Source: Magnetococcales bacterium WMHbinv6
Lineage (GTDB): Bacteria > Pseudomonadota > Magnetococcia > Magnetococcales > Magnetaquicoccaceae
Assembly (NCBI GenBank): GCA_002753135.1
Contig: PDZV01000002.1
Location: 1 to 57,717, forward strand
Length of the DNA stretch: 57,717 nt
Direction: 5' to 3'
The notes beneath the pieces were generated by a model. It saw only the letters and a list, made by a program, of their open reading frames with translations. It was not told where the DNA came from and did not search any database. A program made the position numbers and the translations under genes. The first letter of the stretch is position 1; each line of letters begins with the position of its first letter. Of this stretch, positions 21,607 through 34,467 are shown one piece after another.

Positions 21607-21717
21607 AAATGATGGATGGGACTGCATCCGAAACCATGTATGATAGCTCCAGATCATGCCCGTGTTTGCCGGTATCCTGTCGACTGTCTCTTGCCGACTG
21701 AAAGTGGGAGGCCATCC

Positions 21718-22596
21718 ATGAAGTTGATCCGTTTTGCTCTGTTTTTCACCCTGCTTTCCCTGGTCTGCTCTGGTTCGCCTGCGCAGGCCAGAGTCATGAT
21801 CCAAAATAAGGGTTCCGATACCCTGGTCAACGTGGCCCAGGCGTGGGCGGAAACCTATCAGCGACTGCATCCGGAAATTGCCATCGCGGTCACCGGTGGC
21901 GGTTCGGGGACCGGTATTGCTGCCCTGCTCAACAATACCGTCGACATTGCCAACGCCAGCCGGGAAATTCAGCCCAAAGAGCTGGCTTTGGCCAAAACAA
22001 ACGGCATCCAACCAATTGAGCATGTGATCGGCTTTGATGCCCTGGCCATCTACGCCCATCCTGCCAATCCCATGGAGGCGATCACTTTGCCGCAACTGGC
22101 CGAAATGTACGGCGAAGGCGGCAAAAGCAAACGCTGGTCTGATCTTGGCATCACGGTACCGGGCTGCAAAGATCAGCGCATCATTCTGGTCAGTCGGCAA
22201 AACAATTCTGGTACCTATTTTTATTTCCGCGAACGGGTTCTCGGCCAACGACGTGATTTTGTTCTCGGCACCAAAGATATGCATGGTTCCAAAGATGTGG
22301 TGGATCTGGTGGCCAAAACCCCCTGCGCCATCGGCTACAGCGGCCTGGCCTACGCCAAGCCCCATGTCAAACTGCTCAAAATTGCCGAAAAAGAGGGAAT
22401 GCCGGCGGTGCTGCCCTCGATGGCCACCGCCATCGATAAAAGCTACCCGATCTCTCGCTCCCTGCTGATGTATACCCCCGGAGAAGCAAAAGATGCGGTG
22501 AAAAATTATCTGGATTGGATCAAAAGCGATCAAGGACAATGTATCCTGCTCAGCAAAGGATATGCCCCCTATCGCCCACTGGTCTGTCAACCCTGA
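21718..22596 (+). CDS. pstS: phosphate ABC transporter substrate-binding protein PstS
   Basis: A 292-residue protein with a signal peptide ending at PAQA; GTGGGAGG before the ATG at 21718 supports this start. The mature protein has the PstS phosphate-pocket phrases: IQNKGSDTLVNVAQAWAE, TGGGSGTGIAALLNNTVDIANASR, and RQNNSGTYFYFRERVLG. It captures phosphate in the periplasm and passes it to PstCA. It opens the pst gene series (pstS, phoU-like, pstC, pstA and two pstB). It is followed by an unusual PhoU fusion gene rather than directly by pstC. Confidence 0.93.
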   Translation: MKLIRFALFFTLLSLVCSGSPAQARVMIQNKGSDTLVNVAQAWAETYQRLHPEIAIAVTGGGSGTGIAALLNNTVDIANASREIQPKELALAKTNGIQPIEHVIGFDALAIYAHPANPMEAITLPQLAEMYGEGGKSKRWSDLGITVPGCKDQRIILVSRQNNSGTYFYFRERVLGQRRDFVLGTKDMHGSKDVVDLVAKTPCAIGYSGLAYAKPHVKLLKIAEKEGMPAVLPSMATAIDKSYPISRSLLMYTPGEAKDAVKNYLDWIKSDQGQCILLSKGYAPYRPLVCQP

Positions 22597-22685: not shown

Positions 22686-23771
22686 ATGGCCATCTATGAA
22701 CAACGGTTGCAAGCCGATCTGAAACAAATCCACAACGGGCTGGCCCTGATCGGTGACCGGGTGGAGCGGGCCCTGCACAACGCCCTGACCGCCTTGTTCA
22801 CCAACGATGAAATTTTGGCCAACCAAACCATTCTCGGCGATCTGGGCATCAATCGGCTCTGCCTGGATCTGGAACATTTCTGCCATTTGGCCTTGATTCG
22901 CCATCAACCTTCGGCGGGACATCTGCGCCGTATCGTGGCCACCTTGAATCTGGTCAGCGAACTGGAACGGGTCGGCGACTATGCCACAACCATCTGCCGT
23001 ATCGCCTTGCTGCAGGCCCCTTTTCCGAGCGGCTCCCTCCATACCCAACTGCAAACCATGGCCAAAAGTGCCAGCCACATGTTGCAACAAGCCCTGACGG
23101 CCTTTGCCTCCGATCAACTGACACTGGCCCGGCAGACGATGAAAATGGCCGATCTGGTCGGGCAACAACTGGACGTTGCCCTGGCGGAACTGGAGCTGCA
23201 CGCAGCGCACCATCCCGATTCCGCACGCCTGATCCTTAACGTTTCCACCCTCTTCACCATGCTGGAGCGGGTCAGTGATCGGGCAAAAAATGTTTGCGAA
23301 GCCACCCTGTTCGTCGTTGCCGGAGAGAGCAAACCACCAAAACAGTTCACCATTCTGTTCATCGACCAGGATAACGCCCTGTTTGCCCCCCTGGCTCAAG
23401 CCATCGCCCGGCAACTCTATCCTTCCCAGGCCCTGTTCCGCATCGCCAGCCCGCAACCGACAGAAGCGCATCCGGCCTTGCTGGCGTTTCTGCGCCAGCA
23501 CAACTATCCCATCCCGGAGCAAAACGGACGTGCCCTGGCCGATTTGTCGTTGACCGAGGAGAACCAGATTATCATCAGCCTGCAAGGACCGGTTCGCTCC
23601 TATCCGCTCAAACTCTCTTTTCACACCCTGTTTCAGGATTGGCAGCCCGAACCGGCCACCTTGCCGGAGAGTCCGGCACAACGACAGGAGGCGCTGGAAC
23701 AGATCCATCAGCAGTTGTTCAACCAGATCCGCACCTTGATGGAAACCATTCTGGGGGAAGAGGTGGCCTGA
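22686..23771 (+). CDS. phoU: PhoU fused to a degenerate LMW-phosphatase/ArsC-like domain
   Basis: A 361-residue protein, about 130 residues longer than ordinary PhoU; ACAGGAAA precedes the ATG. Residues 1-215 hold both PhoU helical repeats, with the metal-binding phrases ELERVGDYA (92-100) and MLERVSDRAKN (192-202). Residues 221-355 follow the fold pattern of low-molecular-weight protein tyrosine phosphatases and arsenate reductases: ILFIDQDNALFAPLAQAIARQL in place of VLFVC-x5-RSPxAEA, then HPALLAFLRQH, ENQIIISL, and a final helical EQIHQQLFNQI segment. The catalytic Cys is D227 and the Arg is F233, so this part should be inactive and may sense or bind. PhoU couples the Pst transporter to PhoR. 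pstC follows 1 bp after the stop. Confidence 0.85.
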   Translation: MAIYEQRLQADLKQIHNGLALIGDRVERALHNALTALFTNDEILANQTILGDLGINRLCLDLEHFCHLALIRHQPSAGHLRRIVATLNLVSELERVGDYATTICRIALLQAPFPSGSLHTQLQTMAKSASHMLQQALTAFASDQLTLARQTMKMADLVGQQLDVALAELELHAAHHPDSARLILNVSTLFTMLERVSDRAKNVCEATLFVVAGESKPPKQFTILFIDQDNALFAPLAQAIARQLYPSQALFRIASPQPTEAHPALLAFLRQHNYPIPEQNGRALADLSLTEENQIIISLQGPVRSYPLKLSFHTLFQDWQPEPATLPESPAQRQEALEQIHQQLFNQIRTLMETILGEEVA

Positions 23772-23772
23772 A

Positions 23773-24678
23773 ATGGACCATTCTGCCTCCGACCGTCCTG
23801 ATCGCAACTGGTATCTGGATCAGTTGCTGCATGCGATCATGCTGCTCTGCGGTCTCTCTGCCATCCTCTTTGTGCTGGGTATTTTTCTCTTTGTCTTTGC
23901 TGAAGGGGCCGGTTTTATCTTTCATACCCTGGATTGGCAGGAGTTTTTTCTCTCGCCCCGCTGGATGCCCACTTCCAACTATCATCCCACCTACGGTATT
24001 CTGGCCCTGATCACCGGTACCGCCGCCATTACCCTGCTGGCCATGCTGCTGGCCGTGCCCCTCTCCCTGGGATCTGCCATCTATATCGCCGAATTTTCCC
24101 GTGGCCGCAAAAAAGAGATTCTGAAAATTCTCATCGAACTGTTGGCCGCCATCCCCTCCGTGGTCTGGGGTTTTATCGGTCTGGCCATCCTCAATCCGTT
24201 GATCATTACGCTGTTTGATGTCCCTCTCGGCTTGAATATTCTCAACTGCGGTCTCATTCTGGCCCTGATGTCGGCCCCGATCATTACCTCTATCGCCGAA
24301 GATGCCTTGAAAGCGGTTCCCGACAGCTATCGGGAGGCTGCCGAAGCCTTGGGAGCCACCCGTTGGCAAACCACCCATCGGGTGGTGCTGCCTGCCGCCA
24401 AACAGGGTTTGTTGGCTGCCGTACTTTTGGGGGTCGGACGCAGTTTTGGCGAAACCATGGCCGTTCTGATGGCCAGCGGCCACTCCATTCATATGCCGGA
24501 ATCTCTCTTCGATTCGGTGCGCGCCTTGACCGCCACCATCGCAGCCGAATTGGGCGAAACCGCCGTCGGCTCGGTCCACTATCAGGCCCTGTTTGCTATC
24601 GGTATCGTGCTTTTTACCATTACCTTTCTGATCAATCTGACCGCCGATTGGATCATCCACCGCCGTCCTAAGAGTTGA
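23773..24678 (+). CDS. pstC: phosphate ABC transporter permease PstC
   Basis: A 301-residue permease with six hydrophobic helices. The first lies at about residues 20-45, and a conserved periplasmic-side WMPTSNYHPTYGILALITGT follows, typical of PstC. The inner-membrane EAA loop reads DSYREAAEALGATRWQTTHRVVLPAAKQG. With PstA it forms the phosphate channel driven by PstB. It begins 1 bp after the phoU stop and overlaps or abuts pstA at its end. Confidence 0.95.
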   Translation: MDHSASDRPDRNWYLDQLLHAIMLLCGLSAILFVLGIFLFVFAEGAGFIFHTLDWQEFFLSPRWMPTSNYHPTYGILALITGTAAITLLAMLLAVPLSLGSAIYIAEFSRGRKKEILKILIELLAAIPSVVWGFIGLAILNPLIITLFDVPLGLNILNCGLILALMSAPIITSIAEDALKAVPDSYREAAEALGATRWQTTHRVVLPAAKQGLLAAVLLGVGRSFGETMAVLMASGHSIHMPESLFDSVRALTATIAAELGETAVGSVHYQALFAIGIVLFTITFLINLTADWIIHRRPKS

Positions 24679-24680
24679 CC

Positions 24681-25553
24681 ATGTTTGCCGCCCAATCTGT
24701 CAACCATCATCATCAGCGCAGGGAATGGCGCATTCGCCTGCTCTTTGGCCTGATGCTGATCCTGCTGATTCTGCCTGTGTTCTGGATTCTCTTCACCCTG
24801 ATCCAGGAGGGGGGATCGATGATCTCCTGGGAATTTATTGCCACCTTTCCCACCCGTGGCATGACCGCCGGAGGCATTTTTCCTGCCCTGCTTGGCACCA
24901 TCTGGCTGGTGGCCCTTTCGCTGCTGGCCTCGGTGCCCCTCGGTGTCGCCGCCGCCGTCTACCTGAGCGAATATGCCCGCCAGGAGCATTGGCTGACCCG
25001 TCTCATCCAGTTGGCAACCATCAATCTGGCCGGCGTCCCCTCCATCGTCCATGCCCTGTTCGGCCTGGGTGCCTTTGTCCATTTTCTCCACCTGGGAACC
25101 AGCATTCTCGCCGCCAGCCTGACCTTGGCGGTGATGACCCTGCCGGTGGTCATTGTCTCCTCCTGGGAATCCTTGCAGGCGGTGCCACACGCCTTCCGCG
25201 AAGCCTGCTGGAATATGGGTGCCACCCGCTGGCAAACCATTCGCCTGGTGGTACTGCCCAACGCCATGACCGGTATTTTGACCGGCATCATTCTGCAAAT
25301 TTCCCGCGCCGCCGGGGAGACCGCCCCGATTCTCTTTACCGGTGCTGTCTTTTTTCTTCCCTATCTGCCCACCAGCCCCTTTGATCAGACCATGGCCCTG
25401 GCCCTCCATCTCTACACCATCGCCACCCAGGTGCCCGATGTGCCCGATGCCCTGCCTTTTGGTGTCGCCCTGCTCCTGGTCGGCCTGGTGCTGCTGATGA
25501 ACAGCGGTGCCATCGTCTTGCGCATGATTCTGCGAGGCAAAAAAAAATGGTAA
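24681..25553 (+). CDS. pstA: phosphate ABC transporter permease PstA
   Basis: A 290-residue permease with six hydrophobic helices. The coupling loop is PHAFREACWNMGATRWQTIRLVVLPNAMTG, followed by the conserved RAAGETAPILFTGAVFF that marks PstA. I start it at the ATG at 24681; a TTG at 24675 overlapping the pstC stop is also possible. The last bases overlap the start of the first pstB gene by 7 bp, so expression is tightly linked. Confidence 0.95.
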   Translation: MFAAQSVNHHHQRREWRIRLLFGLMLILLILPVFWILFTLIQEGGSMISWEFIATFPTRGMTAGGIFPALLGTIWLVALSLLASVPLGVAAAVYLSEYARQEHWLTRLIQLATINLAGVPSIVHALFGLGAFVHFLHLGTSILAASLTLAVMTLPVVIVSSWESLQAVPHAFREACWNMGATRWQTIRLVVLPNAMTGILTGIILQISRAAGETAPILFTGAVFFLPYLPTSPFDQTMALALHLYTIATQVPDVPDALPFGVALLLVGLVLLMNSGAIVLRMILRGKKKW

Positions 25554-26296
25554 CCGTCGACAACCTGACCATCCGCTATGGTGCGCATACCGCTCTGGCC
25601 AACGTCAATCTGCAGATTCGCGCCAAAGAGATTTTTGCCATCATCGGTCCGGCCAACGCGGGCAAAAGCTCTTTTTTGTGTGCCATCAACCGCATGGATG
25701 CCCTGCGGCCCGGCATGTCGGTCAGTGGCGACATTCTCTTCAACGGCATCAATGTTCGCCAATGGCGCAACGTCTATGCCCTGCGTCGGCAAATCGGGGT
25801 GGTCTTTCCCCTGCCTGTCGGCCTGCCGATGACCATCTACGACAATGTTGCCCTGGCACCACGTCTGAGCGGCCAATCCCTGACCAAAGCCGATCTGGAC
25901 GCCCTGGTGGAACGCTGCCTGCGCCGCGCCGCTCTGTGGGATGAGGTCAAGGATCGTCTGCACTCTTTAGGCAGCCTGCTCTCCGGTGGTCAGCAACAAC
26001 GGCTGACCATCGCCCGCGCCCTGGCCCAGGAACCACAGCTGCTCATGCTCGATGAATTTTCCATCGCCGTCGACCCGGTCACCACCATGCGCATTGAAGA
26101 GATTCTGCGCACCTTGCAACAGGAGATGACCATTATTCTGGTCACCAACCTGGTGCAACAGGCCGCCCGTCTGGCCCAGCGCACCGCCTTTTTTCTCAAC
26201 GGTGCCTGCATCGAGGTGGGCGATACGGAGACCATTTTTTCCGGCCAAAGCCAGGATCCGCGCACCCGTGACTATCTTGAAGGAAAATTCGGTTGA
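25547..26296 (+). CDS. pstB: PstB-type ATPase with normal signature but lost Q-loop and H-loop residues
   Basis: A 249-residue ABC ATPase of the PstB group. Walker A is GPANAGKSS (34-42), the signature LSGGQQQR is intact (145-152), and Walker B LLMLDE (165-170) keeps the catalytic Glu. Two key residues are replaced: the Q-loop Gln is Pro88 (VFPLP where PstB has VFQ), and the switch His is Asn201 (LVTNL where PstB has VTHN). The ATP site built on its own Walker motifs should therefore hydrolyse poorly. It is immediately followed, with a 4-bp overlap, by a second PstB with a complementary defect. The two probably work as a heterodimer on PstCA; a regulatory role is also possible. Confidence 0.9.
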   Translation: MVTVDNLTIRYGAHTALANVNLQIRAKEIFAIIGPANAGKSSFLCAINRMDALRPGMSVSGDILFNGINVRQWRNVYALRRQIGVVFPLPVGLPMTIYDNVALAPRLSGQSLTKADLDALVERCLRRAALWDEVKDRLHSLGSLLSGGQQQRLTIARALAQEPQLLMLDEFSIAVDPVTTMRIEEILRTLQQEMTIILVTNLVQQAARLAQRTAFFLNGACIEVGDTETIFSGQSQDPRTRDYLEGKFG

Positions 26297-27087
26297 TGCA
26301 CCCGCCACCCTCCCCGGTTCCCATCGCCATCCACATTCAGCACCTGAACTTGTGGTATGGCACCTTTCAAGCCCTGTTTGACATCAACCTGCAGGTCAAA
26401 CAAGGGATCATTACCAGCATGATCGGCCCCTCCGGCTGCGGCAAATCCACCATTTTGCGCTGTGTCGACCGTATCAACGAACGGAGCGGTACCGTGCGCC
26501 GCGAAGGTCGCATCGAGGTGTTGGGCCATGACATATATGCGCCAGAGGTGGAGCTGGCACAACTGCGCAAAAGGGTCGGCATGGTCTTTCAGCGCCCAAA
26601 CCCGTTGCCCCTCTCCATCTTTGATAACGTACTTTTCGGCCACCGCATCCACCGCCAACCCGACGAACGGGTCAGCCGCCAGGAGGAGGCGGAACTGGCA
26701 GAGATGGCGCTGCAAAAAGTGCTGCTCTGGGACAAGGTCAAAGATCGCCTGCAGCAGAAAGCGACCGTCGGCCTCTCGCTGGAAGAGCAACAAAAACTTT
26801 GTATCGCCCGCCTGTTGCCGGTCAAGCCGGCCATTCTGCTGATGGATGAACCCTGTTCCGCCCTGGATCCGCAAGGCACCCTGGCCGTGGAAGAGTTGAT
26901 CTGGGAGCTGCGCGGCGACTATTCCATCCTGATGGTAACCCACAACATGGCCCAGGCCAGGCGCGCCAGCGAAGAGTGCATTTTTCTGTTGATGGGCCGC
27001 GTCATCGAACAGGGCCCCACCGACCGCCTTTTTCTCACCCCCAGCCAGCCGGAAACAGCCAACTATATTGAGGGGCGTTATGGCTGA
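26293..27087 (+). CDS. pstB: second PstB-type ATPase with degenerate signature motif
   Basis: A 264-residue ABC ATPase close to canonical PstB outside one motif. Walker A is GPSGCGKST (45-53), the Q-loop keeps Gln100 (VFQRPNP), Walker B with D-loop is LLMDEPCSALDP (E186), and the switch His217 is present (VTHNM). The signature, however, reads LSLEE (161-165) instead of LSGGQ. It ends in the PstB-typical YIEGRYG. In a heterodimer with the upstream PstB, its intact Walker site would face the other protein's intact LSGGQ, and its broken signature would face the other protein's impaired site. It is the last pst gene; its first base overlaps the previous gene. Confidence 0.92.
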   Translation: MMHPPPSPVPIAIHIQHLNLWYGTFQALFDINLQVKQGIITSMIGPSGCGKSTILRCVDRINERSGTVRREGRIEVLGHDIYAPEVELAQLRKRVGMVFQRPNPLPLSIFDNVLFGHRIHRQPDERVSRQEEAELAEMALQKVLLWDKVKDRLQQKATVGLSLEEQQKLCIARLLPVKPAILLMDEPCSALDPQGTLAVEELIWELRGDYSILMVTHNMAQARRASEECIFLLMGRVIEQGPTDRLFLTPSQPETANYIEGRYG

Positions 27088-27149: not shown

Positions 27150-27323
27150 AAAATCAATCTGCAAACAAGGAGGTTACACAAAACAGCTTCCCAAACCTGC
27201 AGTGCGTTTTTTCCTTGTTCCATGCCGAAAAAATTTTAAGATGGCTGATTCAATTTGATAACCTCGGGTTGCCGCGTCTCTCTGTTTTTCCCGGCACCAT
27301 GGTCTATGAGGCCGGATTTTGCC

Positions 27324-29036
27324 ATGTCCGCAACTGCCAATACCTTTAAGCCAAAACTCTTTCTGCTGATTCTGGTCATGCCGGGCATCCTCTGGTTTGC
27401 CGTGCTGGCTGCCGGGATGCAGGGGTTGCTCTCCATCCGCGACAACCAGGCTGTCGCCCATCAGGATCGGGAACTGCTCAAATTGGGTACCCAGGCCATT
27501 GACCATATCCGAGAGGCACAGTTTCACTTCAAGTCACAAGTGCAACATTGGAAAAATATGCTGCTGCGCGGTCAGGATGTGACACAGCGGAACCTGCACC
27601 TGCAACGGATGGAACAGGAAGAACAACAGGTGCAAGAGGTTTTGCAGCAGCTCCCCTCCCTGTTGCAACCGTTGGGGTTGGACCCGAATATTTTGCAACA
27701 GGTGGCCAGTCTGCAACAGCAACACCGCGCCTTGGGGCTGCATTACCGTTCCGCCCTGCGGGTGTACAACGACAGCCTGCAGAAGCAGTCAGCTGCCCAT
27801 ACCGCTGCCATGGCTGCCGACAAAGTCGTTTTCGGCCAAGACACCCTGACCAGTGATAATACCGACCAACTGGCCGTTGCCATTGTGCAACAGGTGCAAC
27901 AACTGGTAATGAATGCCGCCGAACGTGACGACCGCTGGTTCAGTCGACAGATTACCTATGCCGCCTGGATTTTGGCCGCTTTTATCCTGCTGATTCTGCC
28001 CGTGGCCTTTTTTACCGTCCGACGCCACGTCATTCAACCCATTACCCTGATGACCGACGCCATCGAACAGGTTGCACAAGGCAATCTGCAACAACAGGTG
28101 GCCGCACAAAGCATGGATGAACTCAGTCGCATGGGCCTCGCCTTCAACCATATGGCCAGCGAACTCAACCGGATCCATTCCGGTCTGCAAAGTGAACGGG
28201 ACAAGTTGACCACCATCATCGTCGCCGCCCAGGAGGGTATCGTCATCACCGATCGTTTGGGCAACATCGCCTTGATCAATCCTGCCGCCGAACGTCTGTT
28301 GGAAAAAAGCGCCGAACAAATCACCCGGGAGGGGTTTCTCAACCTGCTCGATGATCCCGACTATCTGCATGCCTATCTCAATCAGTCCGGTATCGAAATT
28401 CCCTCCACGGTGGTCTATCACAATCGGGTGTTGAGCTTTTATGCGGCAACCATTCACGACCCGGATGGTCAGGCAATCGGTTCCGCTGCCTTGATGCGCG
28501 ACATCACGGAAGAAAAGCGGCTGGAAAAACAACTGCGCGATCTCTCCAATACCGACAGTTTGACCAGCCTGAACAACCGACGCCGCATGGAAGAAATTTT
28601 GAGCGAAGAGTTCAGCCGCGCCAAACGCTACAAGCTGCCATTGAGCATTCTCATGCTTGATGTCGACCATTTCAAACGCTTTAACGACCAGCATGGCCAC
28701 GACCAAGGTGATCGGGTCTTGCAAGCGGTCGCCCGTGTCATGCACAATACCTGTCGGGATGTGGATTCGCCTTGCCGTTATGGTGGCGAAGAGTTTTGTC
28801 TGATTCTGCCCAGTACCGCCTTGGAGGGGGCAGACCGCATGGCGGAACGGTTGCGTTACAACGTCGAACAGCATCGTGTCGATGGTCTGCAGGTCACCAT
28901 CAGCATTGGTGTCGCCGTCTTCCCCCTGGTCGGAGAAACGGCCGAATCCTTGAAAAAATTGGCCGACGAAGCCCTGTATCAAGCCAAACATGCCGGGCGT
29001 AACTGCTACCGTATCGCGGGTCAGCCGTTGACCTGA
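27324..29036 (+). CDS. membrane-bound HAMP-PAS diguanylate cyclase
   Basis: A 570-residue protein from the ATG at 27324 (alternatives at 27306 and a TTG at 27255; none has a clear ribosome site). It has a signal-anchor helix, a Gln-rich helical periplasmic part of about 170 residues, a second helix (AWILAAFILLILPVAFFTV), HAMP, PAS and a C-terminal GGDEF domain. The active loop is RYGGEEF, and RDVD lies five residues before it, matching the RxxD inhibitory site. It should make c-di-GMP from two GTP with product inhibition. It follows the pst genes after a 236-bp gap. The ligand of the sensor is unknown. Confidence 0.9.
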   Translation: MSATANTFKPKLFLLILVMPGILWFAVLAAGMQGLLSIRDNQAVAHQDRELLKLGTQAIDHIREAQFHFKSQVQHWKNMLLRGQDVTQRNLHLQRMEQEEQQVQEVLQQLPSLLQPLGLDPNILQQVASLQQQHRALGLHYRSALRVYNDSLQKQSAAHTAAMAADKVVFGQDTLTSDNTDQLAVAIVQQVQQLVMNAAERDDRWFSRQITYAAWILAAFILLILPVAFFTVRRHVIQPITLMTDAIEQVAQGNLQQQVAAQSMDELSRMGLAFNHMASELNRIHSGLQSERDKLTTIIVAAQEGIVITDRLGNIALINPAAERLLEKSAEQITREGFLNLLDDPDYLHAYLNQSGIEIPSTVVYHNRVLSFYAATIHDPDGQAIGSAALMRDITEEKRLEKQLRDLSNTDSLTSLNNRRRMEEILSEEFSRAKRYKLPLSILMLDVDHFKRFNDQHGHDQGDRVLQAVARVMHNTCRDVDSPCRYGGEEFCLILPSTALEGADRMAERLRYNVEQHRVDGLQVTISIGVAVFPLVGETAESLKKLADEALYQAKHAGRNCYRIAGQPLT

Positions 29037-29100
29037 GAGCTTGTGAATACAGCGTCACCAGCAAGCCCGCTGGCACGGCACATTTTCCTTCGACAGGTTG

Positions 29101-31887
29101 ATGGGTTCACGCATGGATCTCCTCTCCCTTGCCACAGCAAAACGGTTGTTGCTACGCATTCTGCTTCGCCTGGGAGTGCTGATCGTCGCCTTTCTGCTGC
29201 TGATCGCCTGGCTGCAGGACGAACAGGCAGCGACCTGGACGACAGAGGAACGGTGGTCCCTGATCGTGCTGTTCAGCCTGCTGGCAGGCGGCCTGATCGG
29301 TCAACAAATCTATCGGCTGTTGCATCCCCTGGAACATTTGGCCGTCACCCTGCGCCACTGGCAGGAGCATCGCTCACCGGAAACCTTGCTGGAACCCATC
29401 CCCGCCTGCAGTCAGGAAATTTTGTGGATTCAAAACACCTTTCAAGCCCTGCTGATCAATCAGGAGTGGGAGAGCAGCCAACTCGAAGAACGGGTCGCAC
29501 AACGTACCCAGGATTTGAATCGGATCAAAGAGGAGGCGGAGGCGGCCAATCGCGCCAAAAGTGAATTTTTGGCCAATATGAGCCATGAAATTCGTACCCC
29601 GATGAATGCCATCATCGGTTTGACCGACCTGGCGTTGCGGATGCGGCCACCACCCAAATTGGAAAAACATCTTTCCAAAGTGTTGCACGCCTCTCGCGCT
29701 CTGTTGCGTATCTTGAACGACATTCTCGATTTTTCCAAAATAGAAGCCGGCAAGTTGACCCTGGATCCGGTACCGTTCAGCCTGCATCGTCTGTTCGACA
29801 ATCTGGGCGATCTGTTCCGACAGGCCGCCTCCGACAAAGGGGTTGAACTCAACCTTTCGATTGTCGCCACCATTCCGGCACGGCTGATTGCCGACGATGC
29901 CCGTATCGAACAGGTGCTGGTCAACCTGATCAGCAACGCCATCAAGTTTACCGAAAATGGCGAAATCGACGTGCGCGCCATCGCCATGGATAAAACGCAA
30001 AGCCAACTGCGCCTGGTCTTCTCGGTGCGTGATACCGGCATCGGTCTCTCCTCCGAACAGATGGCTGCCCTGTTTGAACCGTTTGTCCAGGCCGACAGCT
30101 CCATCACCCGCCGCCACGGTGGCACCGGCCTCGGTTTGAGCATCTGTAAACGGCTGGTCGAAATGATGGGCGGTCGCATCGAAGTGGAAAGTACCATCGG
30201 CCAAGGCAGCATCTTTTTCTTTTCGGTGCTGGTCGGCGTCGACGAGGCCGAACCCCCGCTGGAGTTGATTCCACCAAAAGAGCTCAACACCCTGCGCATT
30301 CTGGTGGTCGATGACAATGAAACGGCACGACTGATCCTGTGGGAATATCTGCGCGGCTTCCAGGTCCGGCCCACGGTGGTCGACTCCGGGCAGCGCGCCC
30401 TGAACGAAGTGCAAGCAGCCTGGCACAACAACACGCCGTTCGATTTGATCTTTGTCGATCACCGCATGCCCGACATGAGCGGCCTGGAAACCGTGCGCAA
30501 ACTGTGTCGGCTGATCGACAGCCTGGATACCTCTGCGGACGGTGACGGTTCACCCGGCACGCTGCCGAAAATCATCATGCTGACCGCTTTTCACAGCGAT
30601 GAACTGAAACGTCAGGCCGGTGTGGCAGGAGTTGATCGTCTGCTGCAAAAACCGATCAGCAGTACCGAACTGTTCAATGCCATCATGGAGCTGTTTGGCC
30701 GCCACGACGCCAAAATCCACCACACAAAACGGGAGGAGACTGTCAACCTCTCTGCCATTACCCAGCAGATCGGTGGCGCACGTATTCTGTTGGTCGAAGA
30801 TAATGGCATCAACCGCGAAGTGGCCCGGGGCGTGTTGGAACAGGTGGGTATTCAGGTCGAGGAGGCCCATAACGGCCAGGAAGCGGTATGGATGGTCGGC
30901 AAAACCCGCTACGACGCCGTGCTGATGGATATTCAAATGCCGATCATGGATGGCATTACCGCCACCACACTGATCCGCCAGGACCGCCGTTGCCAAACCT
31001 TGCCCATTATCGCCATGACCGCCCATGCCCTGGACGGCGATCGCGATAAAAGTCTGGCGGCTGGCATGAACGTGCATATCACCAAACCGATTGATAACGA
31101 CACCCTCTACGCCGCCCTGCTGCAATGGATCAAACCCAAGGATCGCTCCCCCGGCCAGTGGACAGCGCCGCTGCTGCCCTCTACCGTGGAGGAGATTGCC
31201 CCGATCGCCTTGCCCGAGGCGCTGCCGGGCATCGATCTGCAGACCGCCTTGCGCCGCCTGCATGGCAATCGCCGTGTTTTGCTGGCACTGCTCTGGGAGT
31301 TTCACCGCGACTTTGCCCAGTCCGCCGCACAACTGACCATGGCCTTGTTGCACAACAAACGGCGCGACGATCAAAAGCAGGCGGAACGTCTGGTCCACGC
31401 AGTCAAAGGAATTGCCGGCAATCTGTCGGCCATGGAGCTGTTCAGTATTGCCAAGCAGTTGGAAGAGTCGGTCCGTACCGGCCAAAGTTCGGAGTGGGAA
31501 AATCTGCTGCACGAATACGCCGTTGCGCTGCAACGGGTATTGACCACCATCGAAACCCTGCCCCAACCCCTGGACGCCATCCAGATCAGCTCCGATCCCG
31601 CTGCCCTCATGCCCAGCCGCCCCCCTCTCGACAACGAAGCAATAACGGCTCTGCTGGAACAACTGGCCCGCTATCTGCTGGCCCAGGATGCCCGCGCTCA
31701 GGACATTTTTGATCAACTCAACCCGCAGCTGCCCGCTCATCTTGCACCACCAGCCGCACAACATTGGCAGCAACTGCGTGAACAGTTGGATCAATTTCAA
31801 TTTCAGCAGGCCCACGCCACCCTGACCGCCGTGAGTGCCTCTTTGCCTGTCAGCGTGCAAAATCCGGCAAGCAGATCTGAGACGTAG
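29101..31887 (+). CDS. hybrid histidine kinase with two receiver domains and HPt
   Basis: A 928-residue phosphorelay protein. Two membrane helices (about 17-38 and 52-71) flank a very short extracytoplasmic loop, so any signal is probably sensed in or near the membrane. A coiled segment leads to HisKA ([13 protein letters not shown], His162) and HATPase_c ([28 protein letters not shown]). Two receivers follow, with [13 protein letters not shown] and [13 protein letters not shown] as phosphorylation sites, then an HPt domain with [11 protein letters not shown]. It could start at 29101 or 29113. The partner output protein is not obvious; the REC-PAS-GGDEF-EAL protein at 47449 is a candidate. 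It converges on phoB with an 8-bp gap and no terminator. Confidence 0.92.
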
Positions 31888-31895
31888 CCCCTCTT

Positions 31896-32615
31896 CTATT
31901 GCAAACGGCTTGCCCCGTCACCAGGACGTTCCCGCAGGCGGTAACCCATGTTGCGCACCGTTTCAATGGCATCACCCACCGGTCCCAACTTTTCCCGCAG
32001 CCGTTTGACATGCACGTCCACCGTGCGGGTCTGGACCGATGTGTTGTTCAAGTTCCATACCTTGGTCAATAATATATCCCGCGACTGTACCCGCCCCTTG
32101 TTGGTCAGCAACAGATCCAGCAACTTGAACTCCATGGCGGTCAAAAAAATTTCTTGTTCCGCCAACCAGACCCGATGGCGCGTCCGATCCATCTTCAGCA
32201 TGCCGAATACCACCTGTGACTCTTCCGTCGCCTGCGCACCCGAACCACTGCGGCGCAAAATAGCCCGGACCCGTAACATCAGCTCCCGCACGTGAAACGG
32301 TTTGACCACATAATCATCTGCCCCCAACTCAAAACCGACCACCCGATCGGTATCTTCCCCCTTGGCGCTTAAAAAGAGAATCGGCGTCGCCCGTGTCCGC
32401 TCATCCATGCGCAAACGATGACACACCTCAATGCCTGACATGCCCGGTAACATGACATCCAACATGGCCAAATCCGGCGGCCCATTCTGGCTGACCCACT
32501 CCAACCCCTCCTCGCCGCTGACAAAAGGAAATACCTGATACCCCTCATTTTTCAGGTTATATTCCAAGGTCATCAATAAATCTTCTTCATCCTCGATGAT
32601 CAGAATATTGGCCAT
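31896..32615 (-). CDS. phoB: phosphate regulon response regulator PhoB
   Basis: A 239-residue OmpR-family regulator. The receiver starts ILIIEDEEDLLMTLEYNLKNEGY, has the phosphorylation site LAMLDVMLPGMSG (Asp near 53), the switch Thr/Ser in LFLSAKGED, and Lys in VVKPF. The C-terminal winged helix reads FLTAMEFKLLDLLLTNKGRVQSRDILLTKVW and VDVHVKRLREKLG, which matches PhoB closely. It activates Pho genes when phosphorylated by PhoR. The assignment as PhoB, rather than another OmpR regulator, rests on sequence pattern plus the adjacent phoR and the nearby pst genes. It lies 85 bp after phoR. Confidence 0.9.
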   Translation of the reverse strand: MANILIIEDEEDLLMTLEYNLKNEGYQVFPFVSGEEGLEWVSQNGPPDLAMLDVMLPGMSGIEVCHRLRMDERTRATPILFLSAKGEDTDRVVGFELGADDYVVKPFHVRELMLRVRAILRRSGSGAQATEESQVVFGMLKMDRTRHRVWLAEQEIFLTAMEFKLLDLLLTNKGRVQSRDILLTKVWNLNNTSVQTRTVDVHVKRLREKLGPVGDAIETVRNMGYRLRERPGDGASRLQ

Positions 32616-32700: not shown

Positions 32701-34467
32701 TCAGACAACAACCCGCGATACACTCAGCCAAAACAGGGATCCCTGTGGAACAATGGCCTCCATGCCAACCGTTTCACCCATTTTTTCCGCAAGATGTTTG
32801 ACAATCGACAAGCCCAATCCCGTCCCGCCCATCTTGCGGGAACGTCCTGAATCGACGCGATAAAACCGTTCAAAAACGCGGTCACGGTGCTGGGGCGCAA
32901 TGCCAGGGCCATCGTCGAGTACCTCCAGGCGCCATTGTCCCTGCCGTTCCCGCGTCCGCACCCATATTTTGGCACGGTTTGGCACATACTTGACCGCATT
33001 ATCAAGAAAATTGATCAAAATACGCCGCAACACTTCCGCATCGGCCCGGATGGTCATTTCCGGCTCCACCATGATCTGCAGCTTGATCTCCTTATCCTGC
33101 GCGGCCAGGCGCACCAGATCCACCACCTCATGGACAATCGGTAACAGCTCCAGGGATTGCAGTTCGATGGCAAACTGATCGGCCTCCAAACGGGAAAGAT
33201 CCAGCAGATCGGCAATCAATTTGGCCAGTCGACTGGCGTTGCGCTCCATGGCGCTGACCAGAATGCGGCTGTATTTATTATCCTCCAGCGCCCCTTCCAG
33301 CAGCGTCTGGGCATTGGCCTGCAAAACACTGACCGGCGTGCGCAACTCATGGGAGACATTGGCCACAAAATCGCGCCGCATGGCATCCAAACGCCGTTTT
33401 TCTGTCACGTCACGCAAGACGATGACGTGGCCAGGATGTTCATGCAACGGTGTCACCACCGCCGTCACCCGGCGCACCATGGGACCCGGCAGGTCAAATT
33501 CGGTCGAGAAGGGCTGGGCAGGCAGATACGGTTGCTCCAGAGCCAGCTCTTTGCGTATCTGCTCCGGCAAAATATGGCGCACTGCCTCGCCAACCGGTGC
33601 GTGCGGTAAAGACAACAACTCCGTGACCGAACGGTTCATCAGGGTAATCACCTGTTCTCCATCCAGGGCAATCACCCCCTCATGCATGCTTTGCAGCACC
33701 GCCAACATTTGCGACTGTCGTTCCGACAGCAGGGCCAAGGTTTCATTTTTCTCTTCTGCCAACAGGTTCAAAGAGCTGGCCAGCCCGGCCAAGGCGTCAT
33801 TGGCATGAATTTCAATGCGCGGCGCACGGGTCGAGTGGGCCATGGTCTGGGCACAGGCGATGACATGTCGTTGCGAATGGGTGGTCCAGTGGGCAAACAA
33901 GCCGCTCAGAGAGATGGCGGTCATGATGGCAATCAAGCCCGCCACAACGATGGCCATTCGCAACCGACTGGTCAATGCCTGCACCCCCTCCAAAGGAACC
34001 GCAGCACGGACTATCCCCTGCCCTCCATCCGGTTGCTGAAAGGGTACCGCCACATACAACATCCCTTGCGCCATCGTCGCCGATTCCCGACGACTGATGC
34101 CCACGCCATCCCGTAAAGCCTCCACCACCTCTGGACGGAGCTTATGATTGTCCATGGAGAGCAGAGCGACAGCATCGCGCTGCGAATCGCCCAAAACCCG
34201 TCCGTCTTCGGCAATAAAGGTTACCCGAACCCCCTGATCATGGCCTAACAGATCCGCCAGACGATCCGGATTGCGGTTGCTGGTGAGCGACCCGTCAGAC
34301 TCCACCAACAGGCGACCGATGGTGGCATGCCGCCGCAATTCGGTCACCAGTTGCGTCTCCAACCATTCGCCCAGCGAATATTCCAGATAGACATTTGCCG
34401 TGACAATGGCAATCAATACCAGCAATAGAAAAGAGAGAACATATTTACTGCGCAGGTCGAGGGTCAT
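32701..34467 (-). CDS. phoR: phosphate regulon sensor histidine kinase PhoR-like
   Basis: A 588-residue kinase with GGGAGAG upstream of the ATG. Two membrane helices (about 10-30 and 170-192) enclose a periplasmic domain of about 140 residues, larger than in enterobacterial PhoR and more like Gram-positive-type PhoR. A HAMP-like linker, a PAS domain (QSMHEGVIALDGEQVITLMN), HisKA (FVANVSHELRTPVSVLQ) and HATPase_c ([36 protein letters not shown]) follow. It phosphorylates PhoB when phosphate is low, under control of PstSCAB and PhoU. It lies 40 bp after ubiB on the same strand. Confidence 0.88.
   Translation of the reverse strand: MTLDLRSKYVLSFLLLVLIAIVTANVYLEYSLGEWLETQLVTELRRHATIGRLLVESDGSLTSNRNPDRLADLLGHDQGVRVTFIAEDGRVLGDSQRDAVALLSMDNHKLRPEVVEALRDGVGISRRESATMAQGMLYVAVPFQQPDGGQGIVRAAVPLEGVQALTSRLRMAIVVAGLIAIMTAISLSGLFAHWTTHSQRHVIACAQTMAHSTRAPRIEIHANDALAGLASSLNLLAEEKNETLALLSERQSQMLAVLQSMHEGVIALDGEQVITLMNRSVTELLSLPHAPVGEAVRHILPEQIRKELALEQPYLPAQPFSTEFDLPGPMVRRVTAVVTPLHEHPGHVIVLRDVTEKRRLDAMRRDFVANVSHELRTPVSVLQANAQTLLEGALEDNKYSRILVSAMERNASRLAKLIADLLDLSRLEADQFAIELQSLELLPIVHEVVDLVRLAAQDKEIKLQIMVEPEMTIRADAEVLRRILINFLDNAVKYVPNRAKIWVRTRERQGQWRLEVLDDGPGIAPQHRDRVFERFYRVDSGRSRKMGGTGLGLSIVKHLAEKMGETVGMEAIVPQGSLFWLSVSRVVV

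Follow-up and report, generated by a model that had tools for sequence, protein, structure and literature searches.

A PhoU protein fused to a dead LMW-PTP/ArsC-like domain, encoded with two complementary PstB proteins in a Magnetococcales pst operon

Introduction

The means by which PhoU informs PhoR of what the Pst transporter is doing are not yet settled, and Pst is also a route through which arsenate enters cells. In the 57,717-nucleotide stretch of DNA analyzed here (the window), which comes from the magnetotactic-type bacterium Magnetococcales bacterium WMHbinv6, a gene within a pst operon encodes a PhoU protein that continues into a second domain resembling LMW-PTP and ArsC enzymes but carrying neither of their key P-loop residues. 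What such a domain does on a regulator of phosphate uptake, and which transporter it serves, are the questions raised by this locus. An earlier note on this DNA had proposed that the domain is an inactive copy that could act as a phosphate-related sensor or as a docking module. For PhoU fused to an LMWPc, ArsC or tyrosine phosphatase domain, and likewise for a degenerate PstB, no earlier description was found in the open-access papers searched, most subscription journals being outside that coverage.

Results

The fused gene and its operon

An uninterrupted frame at 22686-23771 on the forward strand encodes one polypeptide of 361 residues, whose parts and neighbors are listed in Table 1. The operon runs pstS-phoU*-pstC-pstA-pstB1-pstB2 (phoU* denotes the fused gene) and is tightly packed: a single base pair separates phoU* from pstC, and the subsequent genes overlap. 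The placement of the gene between pstS and pstC, as first described, thus holds. Positions 27255-31887, which separate pstB2 from the phoB- and phoR-like genes, encode a HAMP-PAS-GGDEF-like protein and a hybrid histidine kinase with receiver domains. Both of the PhoU proteins found in the window genome are fused. The second is encoded in an operon of the order pstS-phoU*-pstCAB1B2-phoB-phoR (locus L031, 1663-14395), which directly adjoins an arsenic cluster containing an intact arsC and ACR3-like, GAPDH-like and ArsJ-like MFS genes.

Table 1. Features of the fused gene and its neighborhood in the window
Feature	Position	Strand	Basis
PhoU domain (residues 1-214)	22686..23327	+	both PhoU repeats; motifs ELERVGDYA, LERVSDRAKN
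Pseudo-ArsC/LMW-PTP-like tail (residues 215-361)	23328..23768	+	LMWPc, ArsC profile, Foldseek
D227 codon, catalytic Cys position	23364..23366	+	alignment; conservation rank 6/140, 91 type I tails
F233 codon, CX5R Arg position	23382..23384	+	alignment; variable column, rank 83/140
pstS	21616..22596	+	TIGR02136 203.4 bits, slightly below cut-off of 206.6; likely start 21718, MKLIRFALFF signal peptide
pstC	23773..24678	+	TIGR02138 E 3.4e-83
pstA	24675..25553	+	TIGR00974 E 3e-76
pstB1	25547..26296	+	TIGR00972 E 2.9e-82, below equivalog cut-off; motifs and alignment
pstB2	26293..27087	+	TIGR00972 E 9.3e-91, below equivalog cut-off; motifs and alignment
PhoB-like response regulator, likely output partner	31896..32615	-	ORF, from sequence; homologues beside fused operons
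PhoR-like histidine kinase, likely partner	32701..34467	-	ORF; homologues beside fused operons

The N-terminal part of the protein is a PhoU by sequence, by structure and by its setting among pst genes. TIGR02135 (phoU_full) matched residues 6 to 214 above its cut-off (139.8 bits, E 8.8e-41), the Pfam PhoU profile matched with an E value of 3.7e-27, and in Foldseek the corresponding part of the AlphaFold model (pLDDT 92.5 and pTM 0.82 for the whole protein) superposed on the PhoU structures 4q25 and 1t72 with TMt values of 0.94 and 0.92, respectively, so that the two PhoU repeats form the two three-helix bundles that are the hallmark of this adaptor. The acidic E/D-x-x-x-D metal-site motifs are present; at the Asp of the second one, residue 198, many of the Magnetococcales relatives, like the second copy of the window genome, have Asn. 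The ArsC-like tail follows in the same frame, which bears out the fusion described in the earlier note.

Fold of the tail

The tail, of about 145 residues, had been assigned to the LMW-PTP/ArsC fold with a search by hidden Markov model and a structure prediction suggested as checks, and both agreed with the assignment. Searched alone, it gave an end-to-end match to the Pfam LMWPc family (PF01451) that fell short of the curated cut-off (14.6 bits, E 0.04), and the same family matched 25 of 26 tails of relatives, with a best E value of 1.7e-11. A profile built from the tail family and run against the PDB found Bacillus subtilis ArsC (E 1.5e-12) ahead of the LMW-PTPs. The best structure for the modeled tail in Foldseek was Staphylococcus aureus ArsC (1jf8; TMt 0.80 and rmsd 2.8 over 130 columns), 1jl3 reaching 0.77, and the model has a four-stranded sheet with flanking helices and a P-loop after strand 1. 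Taken together, these results indicate that the tail is a domain of LMW-PTP/ArsC fold, with the thioredoxin-type ArsC enzymes as its nearest relatives as judged from the model and profile. Two other assignments were rejected. An unrelated helical extension is ruled out by the ArsC match in Foldseek, and a response-regulator receiver domain, considered because of the stretches ILFxDE and ILFIDQDN, is ruled out by both profile and fold, since the four strands of the modeled tail do not form the (beta-alpha)5 arrangement of CheY and no receivers were among the top 50 structures. A structure search of BFVD returned only noise.

The residues expected of an active enzyme are largely gone from this fold. 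Alignment places D227 at the position of the nucleophilic Cys and F233 at that of the CX5R Arg, as the earlier note had it, so the active CX5R(S/T) loop is absent; the two additional redox cysteines that follow strand 3 in thioredoxin-type ArsC are absent as well, IIISLQGPVRSYPL containing no cysteines. The region of the general-acid DP motif reads WQPEPA, with Pro in the column by alignment, while DP itself is kept in the Verrucomicrobia-type members. The window tail is among the most degenerate of the family, having also lost the SAG motif, and it sits on a long branch of the tail tree. The description of this protein as a dead LMW-PTP/ArsC domain on PhoU is therefore supported.

Distribution and two types of fusion

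At least 98 distinct proteins, drawn from many assemblies, have the full-length fusion, a recurrence well beyond chance. The best match to the window protein is from Magnetococcales bacterium HCHbin5 (L065), and the fusion is also found in other Magnetococcales families, in Gammaproteobacteria and, among named records, in Ca. Thiodiazotropha, Lamellibrachia symbionts, Verrucomicrobia, Lentisphaerae, Acidobacteria, Myxococcota/'Deltaproteobacteria', Eisenbacteria and Rhodothermia. Among the genomes sampled, it was present in 40 of 147 from the order of Ca. Thiodiazotropha and, with some matches being of type II (below), in 12 of 149 from the phylum of L092, 11 of 237 from the phylum of L079 and 6 of 195 from the phylum of L085, the last count including one genome (G364) in which the gene has an internal stop and the protein is only partially covered.

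The fused proteins fall into two types. Type I comprises the fusions with Asp at the Cys position and two Cys-bearing relatives (L079 and L157). By their PhoU parts, these proteins group in a single clade with support of 100/100; in about 90 of these proteins the tail is full length and in frame. Type II comprises L153, L154, L163 and L177, with intact CX5R, and L164 to L166, in which Cys has become Ser; the PhoU parts of these proteins lie among canonical PhoUs, and their operons have a single, ordinary PstB. Where wider flanks of type II were read (L198 to L200), arsC domains in the form of arsR-arsC fusions, or arsJ/gapdh-like genes, lie close by. A single origin of the two types is disfavored by the tree and by operon structure, and it is formally unrejected by the AU test (p 0.074).

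Two further arrangements of ArsC with Pho components were seen. At L204 (9499-11832, reverse strand), a PhoR-like histidine kinase carries a C-terminal ArsC domain with intact CX5R and adjoins phoB and an unfused phoU, and in Chloroflexi pst operons (L102, 874-1299; L110, 7502-7939; L114, 7455-7898) separate arsC genes adjoin phoU. From these arrangements and the two types of fusion, it appears on sequence grounds that ArsC domains have joined Pho signaling parts more than once, where Pst is the entry route of arsenate; ars/pst gene synteny has been reported (PMC3834237).

The active-site position across the fused proteins

The earlier note had asked for the same fusion in relatives, with or without the Cys, and both forms exist. 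At the Cys position, 87 of 99 distinct fused proteins have Asp, whereas 6 have Cys, 4 have Ser and 2 have Glu. Arg is found at its own position in 30 of the 99; Verrucomicrobia and many Acidobacteria retain it, most of the others have lost it, and about 20 sequences combine Asp with a retained Arg. Among the 91 type I tails, D227 is preceded in conservation only by F225, A237, W319, L351 and A254, the first three of which are invariant, and the Arg column drifts. Its rank as sixth most conserved of the 140 tail positions makes the Asp look selected.

The tail tree runs from ArsC-like sequences with the loop pattern C..R through D..R (Verrucomicrobia and many Acidobacteria) to D..x (gammaproteobacteria, Magnetococcales and other Acidobacteria), in the last of which the Arg position is mostly Leu, Lys, Gln, His or Ala, and this series reads as a putative stepwise decay. 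Because the SH-aLRT support derives from a rapid tree search over 142 columns, single branches of this tree should not be over-read. The state of the Cys position at the base of type I implies at least two changes on the PhoU tree, with either direction allowed. The presence of Asp across the family, together with the tail tree, marks the exchange of Cys for Asp as characteristic of the family rather than as a local mutation. Evolution is faster in the tail than in the PhoU part (52% versus 64% identity to the nearest relative), and from this and the long branch of the window copy a partial relaxation of the window tail is possible.

Complementary PstB proteins

The two PstB proteins of the window each lack a different motif. 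PstB1 keeps Walker A and LSGGQ, and its Q-loop Gln and H-loop His are changed to Pro (P88) and Asn (N201), respectively; PstB2 keeps Walker A and B, the Q-loop and the H-loop, and its LSGGQ is replaced by LSLEE. The same complementary pair, the hallmark of an asymmetric ABC ATPase, was found in every type I operon with readable PstBs, where the PstB2 signature is LSLEE or LQLEQ and a heterodimer is predicted. In the type II and canonical operons that were examined, by contrast, the PstB motifs are ordinary. Given the established geometry of ABC dimers, the above-described defects would leave one composite ATP site degenerate and the other consensus, making PstB1 and PstB2 the ATPases of a putative asymmetric phosphate importer.

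We compared the distribution of the pair with that of the fusion. In the order of Ca. Thiodiazotropha, the fusion and a PstB1-type protein occur in exactly the same genomes, 40 of 147; the Fisher test of this association takes no account of shared ancestry. Of the 11 type I genomes in the Acidobacteriota sample, 10 have PstB1-type proteins, and in the eleventh the locus ends at the edge of a 3,707-base contig (L215). Nine further Acidobacteriota genomes of the sample and two Magnetococcales genomes have PstB1-type proteins without the fusion, their phoU being unfused or not found in the stretches examined. A strict one-to-one linkage is thus ruled out, since the pair occurs with an unfused phoU or with none in the stretch examined at L205 to L208, L210, L211, L213 and L214; at L205 to L208, L213 and L214, it is a phoU of any kind that was not found there. 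Near two second-copy fused loci, L216 (1981-5897) and L032, no recognizable pstB1 was found, and at L216 a search past pstA revealed no pstB at all. The occurrence of PstB1-type proteins beyond the fusion carriers places the fused PhoU within a broader asymmetric-PstB branch, and pairs lacking a fused PhoU show that the tail is not required by the pair.

Discussion

What does the tail do? The reading that we prefer, at about an even chance, is that the protein is a PhoU adaptor bearing a C-terminal pseudo-enzyme derived from a thioredoxin-type ArsC, which performs neither phosphatase nor reductase chemistry and instead has a docking or regulatory role. Lodged in the old anion pocket, the carboxylate of the Asp would act as a built-in ligand and keep the P-loop ordered, a suggestion drawn from sequence, and the tail would offer a surface through which the coupling by PhoU of the asymmetric transporter, with its PstB1 and PstB2, to the PhoR/PhoB pair is tuned. 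In favor of this role, PhoU and PhoR read PstB conformation in E. coli (PMC5775613), and PhoU directly contacts PhoR (PMC9239213). Of the two roles offered in the earlier note, docking is accordingly the one retained, and a phosphate- or arsenate-sensing loop is not, as neither the Arg nor the thiolate survives in the window protein and its clade, and the Asp or Glu fixed at the Cys position would be expected to weaken the binding of oxyanions.

That sensing role, in which phosphate or arsenate would still bind to the loop, with no turnover, and be reported through PhoU, is unlikely. The fused genes do lie in pst operons, PhoU and arsenic are linked genetically (PMC3834237), and many members outside Magnetococcales keep the Arg and the loop N/S (VDEHNSCRSQMAEA). 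In the window protein, however, Arg is Phe and Cys is Asp, the D..x clade mostly has Leu, Lys, Gln, His or Ala at the Arg position, and a carboxylate held permanently in the pocket would be expected to keep oxyanions out. Phosphate sensing through the window loop is less likely because the Arg is gone and the Asp is negative; for the D-X5-R members of other phyla, sensing of an oxyanion is a possible reading.

Somewhat more doubtful still is that the tail is a relic of an ArsC once placed on PhoU to detoxify arsenate brought in by Pst, the enzyme having decayed and the remainder being tolerated. Such a start would fit the independent-looking PhoU-ArsC fusions (L153, L154, L163 and L177), which keep CX5R intact and are encoded in pst operons with ars genes alongside, the arsenic genes next to the second copy of the window genome and the fast evolution of the tail. 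Mere tolerance, however, does not fit the completeness of the type I tails or the position of D227 among the most conserved residues. New chemistry, with the Asp acting as phosphoacceptor or nucleophile through an aspartyl-phosphate in a P-loop fold, is improbable: the Asp is fixed at the nucleophile position and some members keep the Arg, but the window clade lacks the Arg, a conserved Mg-binding acidic cluster was not noted, and we know of no precedent for an Asp nucleophile in LMW-PTPs. An artefact, either two genes merged by a sequencing error in a draft genome of 80 contigs or a chance resemblance, has a negligible probability, being contradicted by about 98 distinct proteins from many assemblies and by a confident two-domain model, and the recurrence in homologues rules out misassembly.

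Tentatively, and with somewhat less confidence than we place in the docking role of the tail, we suggest that the window operon represents a separate branch of phosphate uptake and signaling, in which an asymmetric PstB1/PstB2 heterodimer with one dead and one live ATP site is read by a dedicated PhoU carrying a selected Asp. This branch would have been born of the recruitment of an arsenate reductase to the Pst/Pho complex, which elsewhere gave PhoU-ArsC and PhoR-ArsC fusions with intact loops. It would be a natural variant that combines an asymmetric ATPase cycle with a PhoU bearing a recognizable extra domain, so that which PstB is read by PhoU, and what the domain contacts, become testable. 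The series of intact CX5R, D-X5-R and D-X5-not-R loops offers a comparison across a regulator-fused enzyme turning into a pseudo-enzyme, and the PhoU-ArsC and PhoR-ArsC fusions whose loops are intact point to a direct coupling, in some bacteria, of arsenate reduction to the control of phosphate uptake.

Each component of this system has a known counterpart from which it departs. Residues 1 to 214 share sequence family, fold and pst operon context with canonical PhoU (TIGR02135; Pseudomonas aeruginosa 4q25 and Aquifex aeolicus 1t72), which stops where the window protein adds its pseudo-ArsC domain and which, unlike the window PhoU, is not partnered by PstBs with complementary motif defects. The tail has the fold and the full-length sequence profile of thioredoxin-type ArsC (S. 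aureus pI258, 1jf8; B. subtilis, 1jl3 and 2ipa) but has Asp for the nucleophilic Cys and Phe for the loop Arg, lacks the resolving cysteines and is fused to PhoU. Type II fusions likewise place an ArsC domain after PhoU in a pst operon, but they have a single canonical PstB, arsR-arsC or other ars genes close by in the loci whose wider flanks were read, a PhoU outside the type I clade and catalytic residues that, apart from the Cys-to-Ser change in L164 to L166, are intact. Finally, two adjacent pstB genes, as in the window, are also present in the tandem pstB operons of Firmicutes (Enterococcus faecalis, PMC12096839; B. subtilis PstBA/PstBB, PMC11466899); in E. faecalis, both PstB1 and PstB2 keep all motifs (PMC12096839), whereas each of the window proteins has lost a different one.
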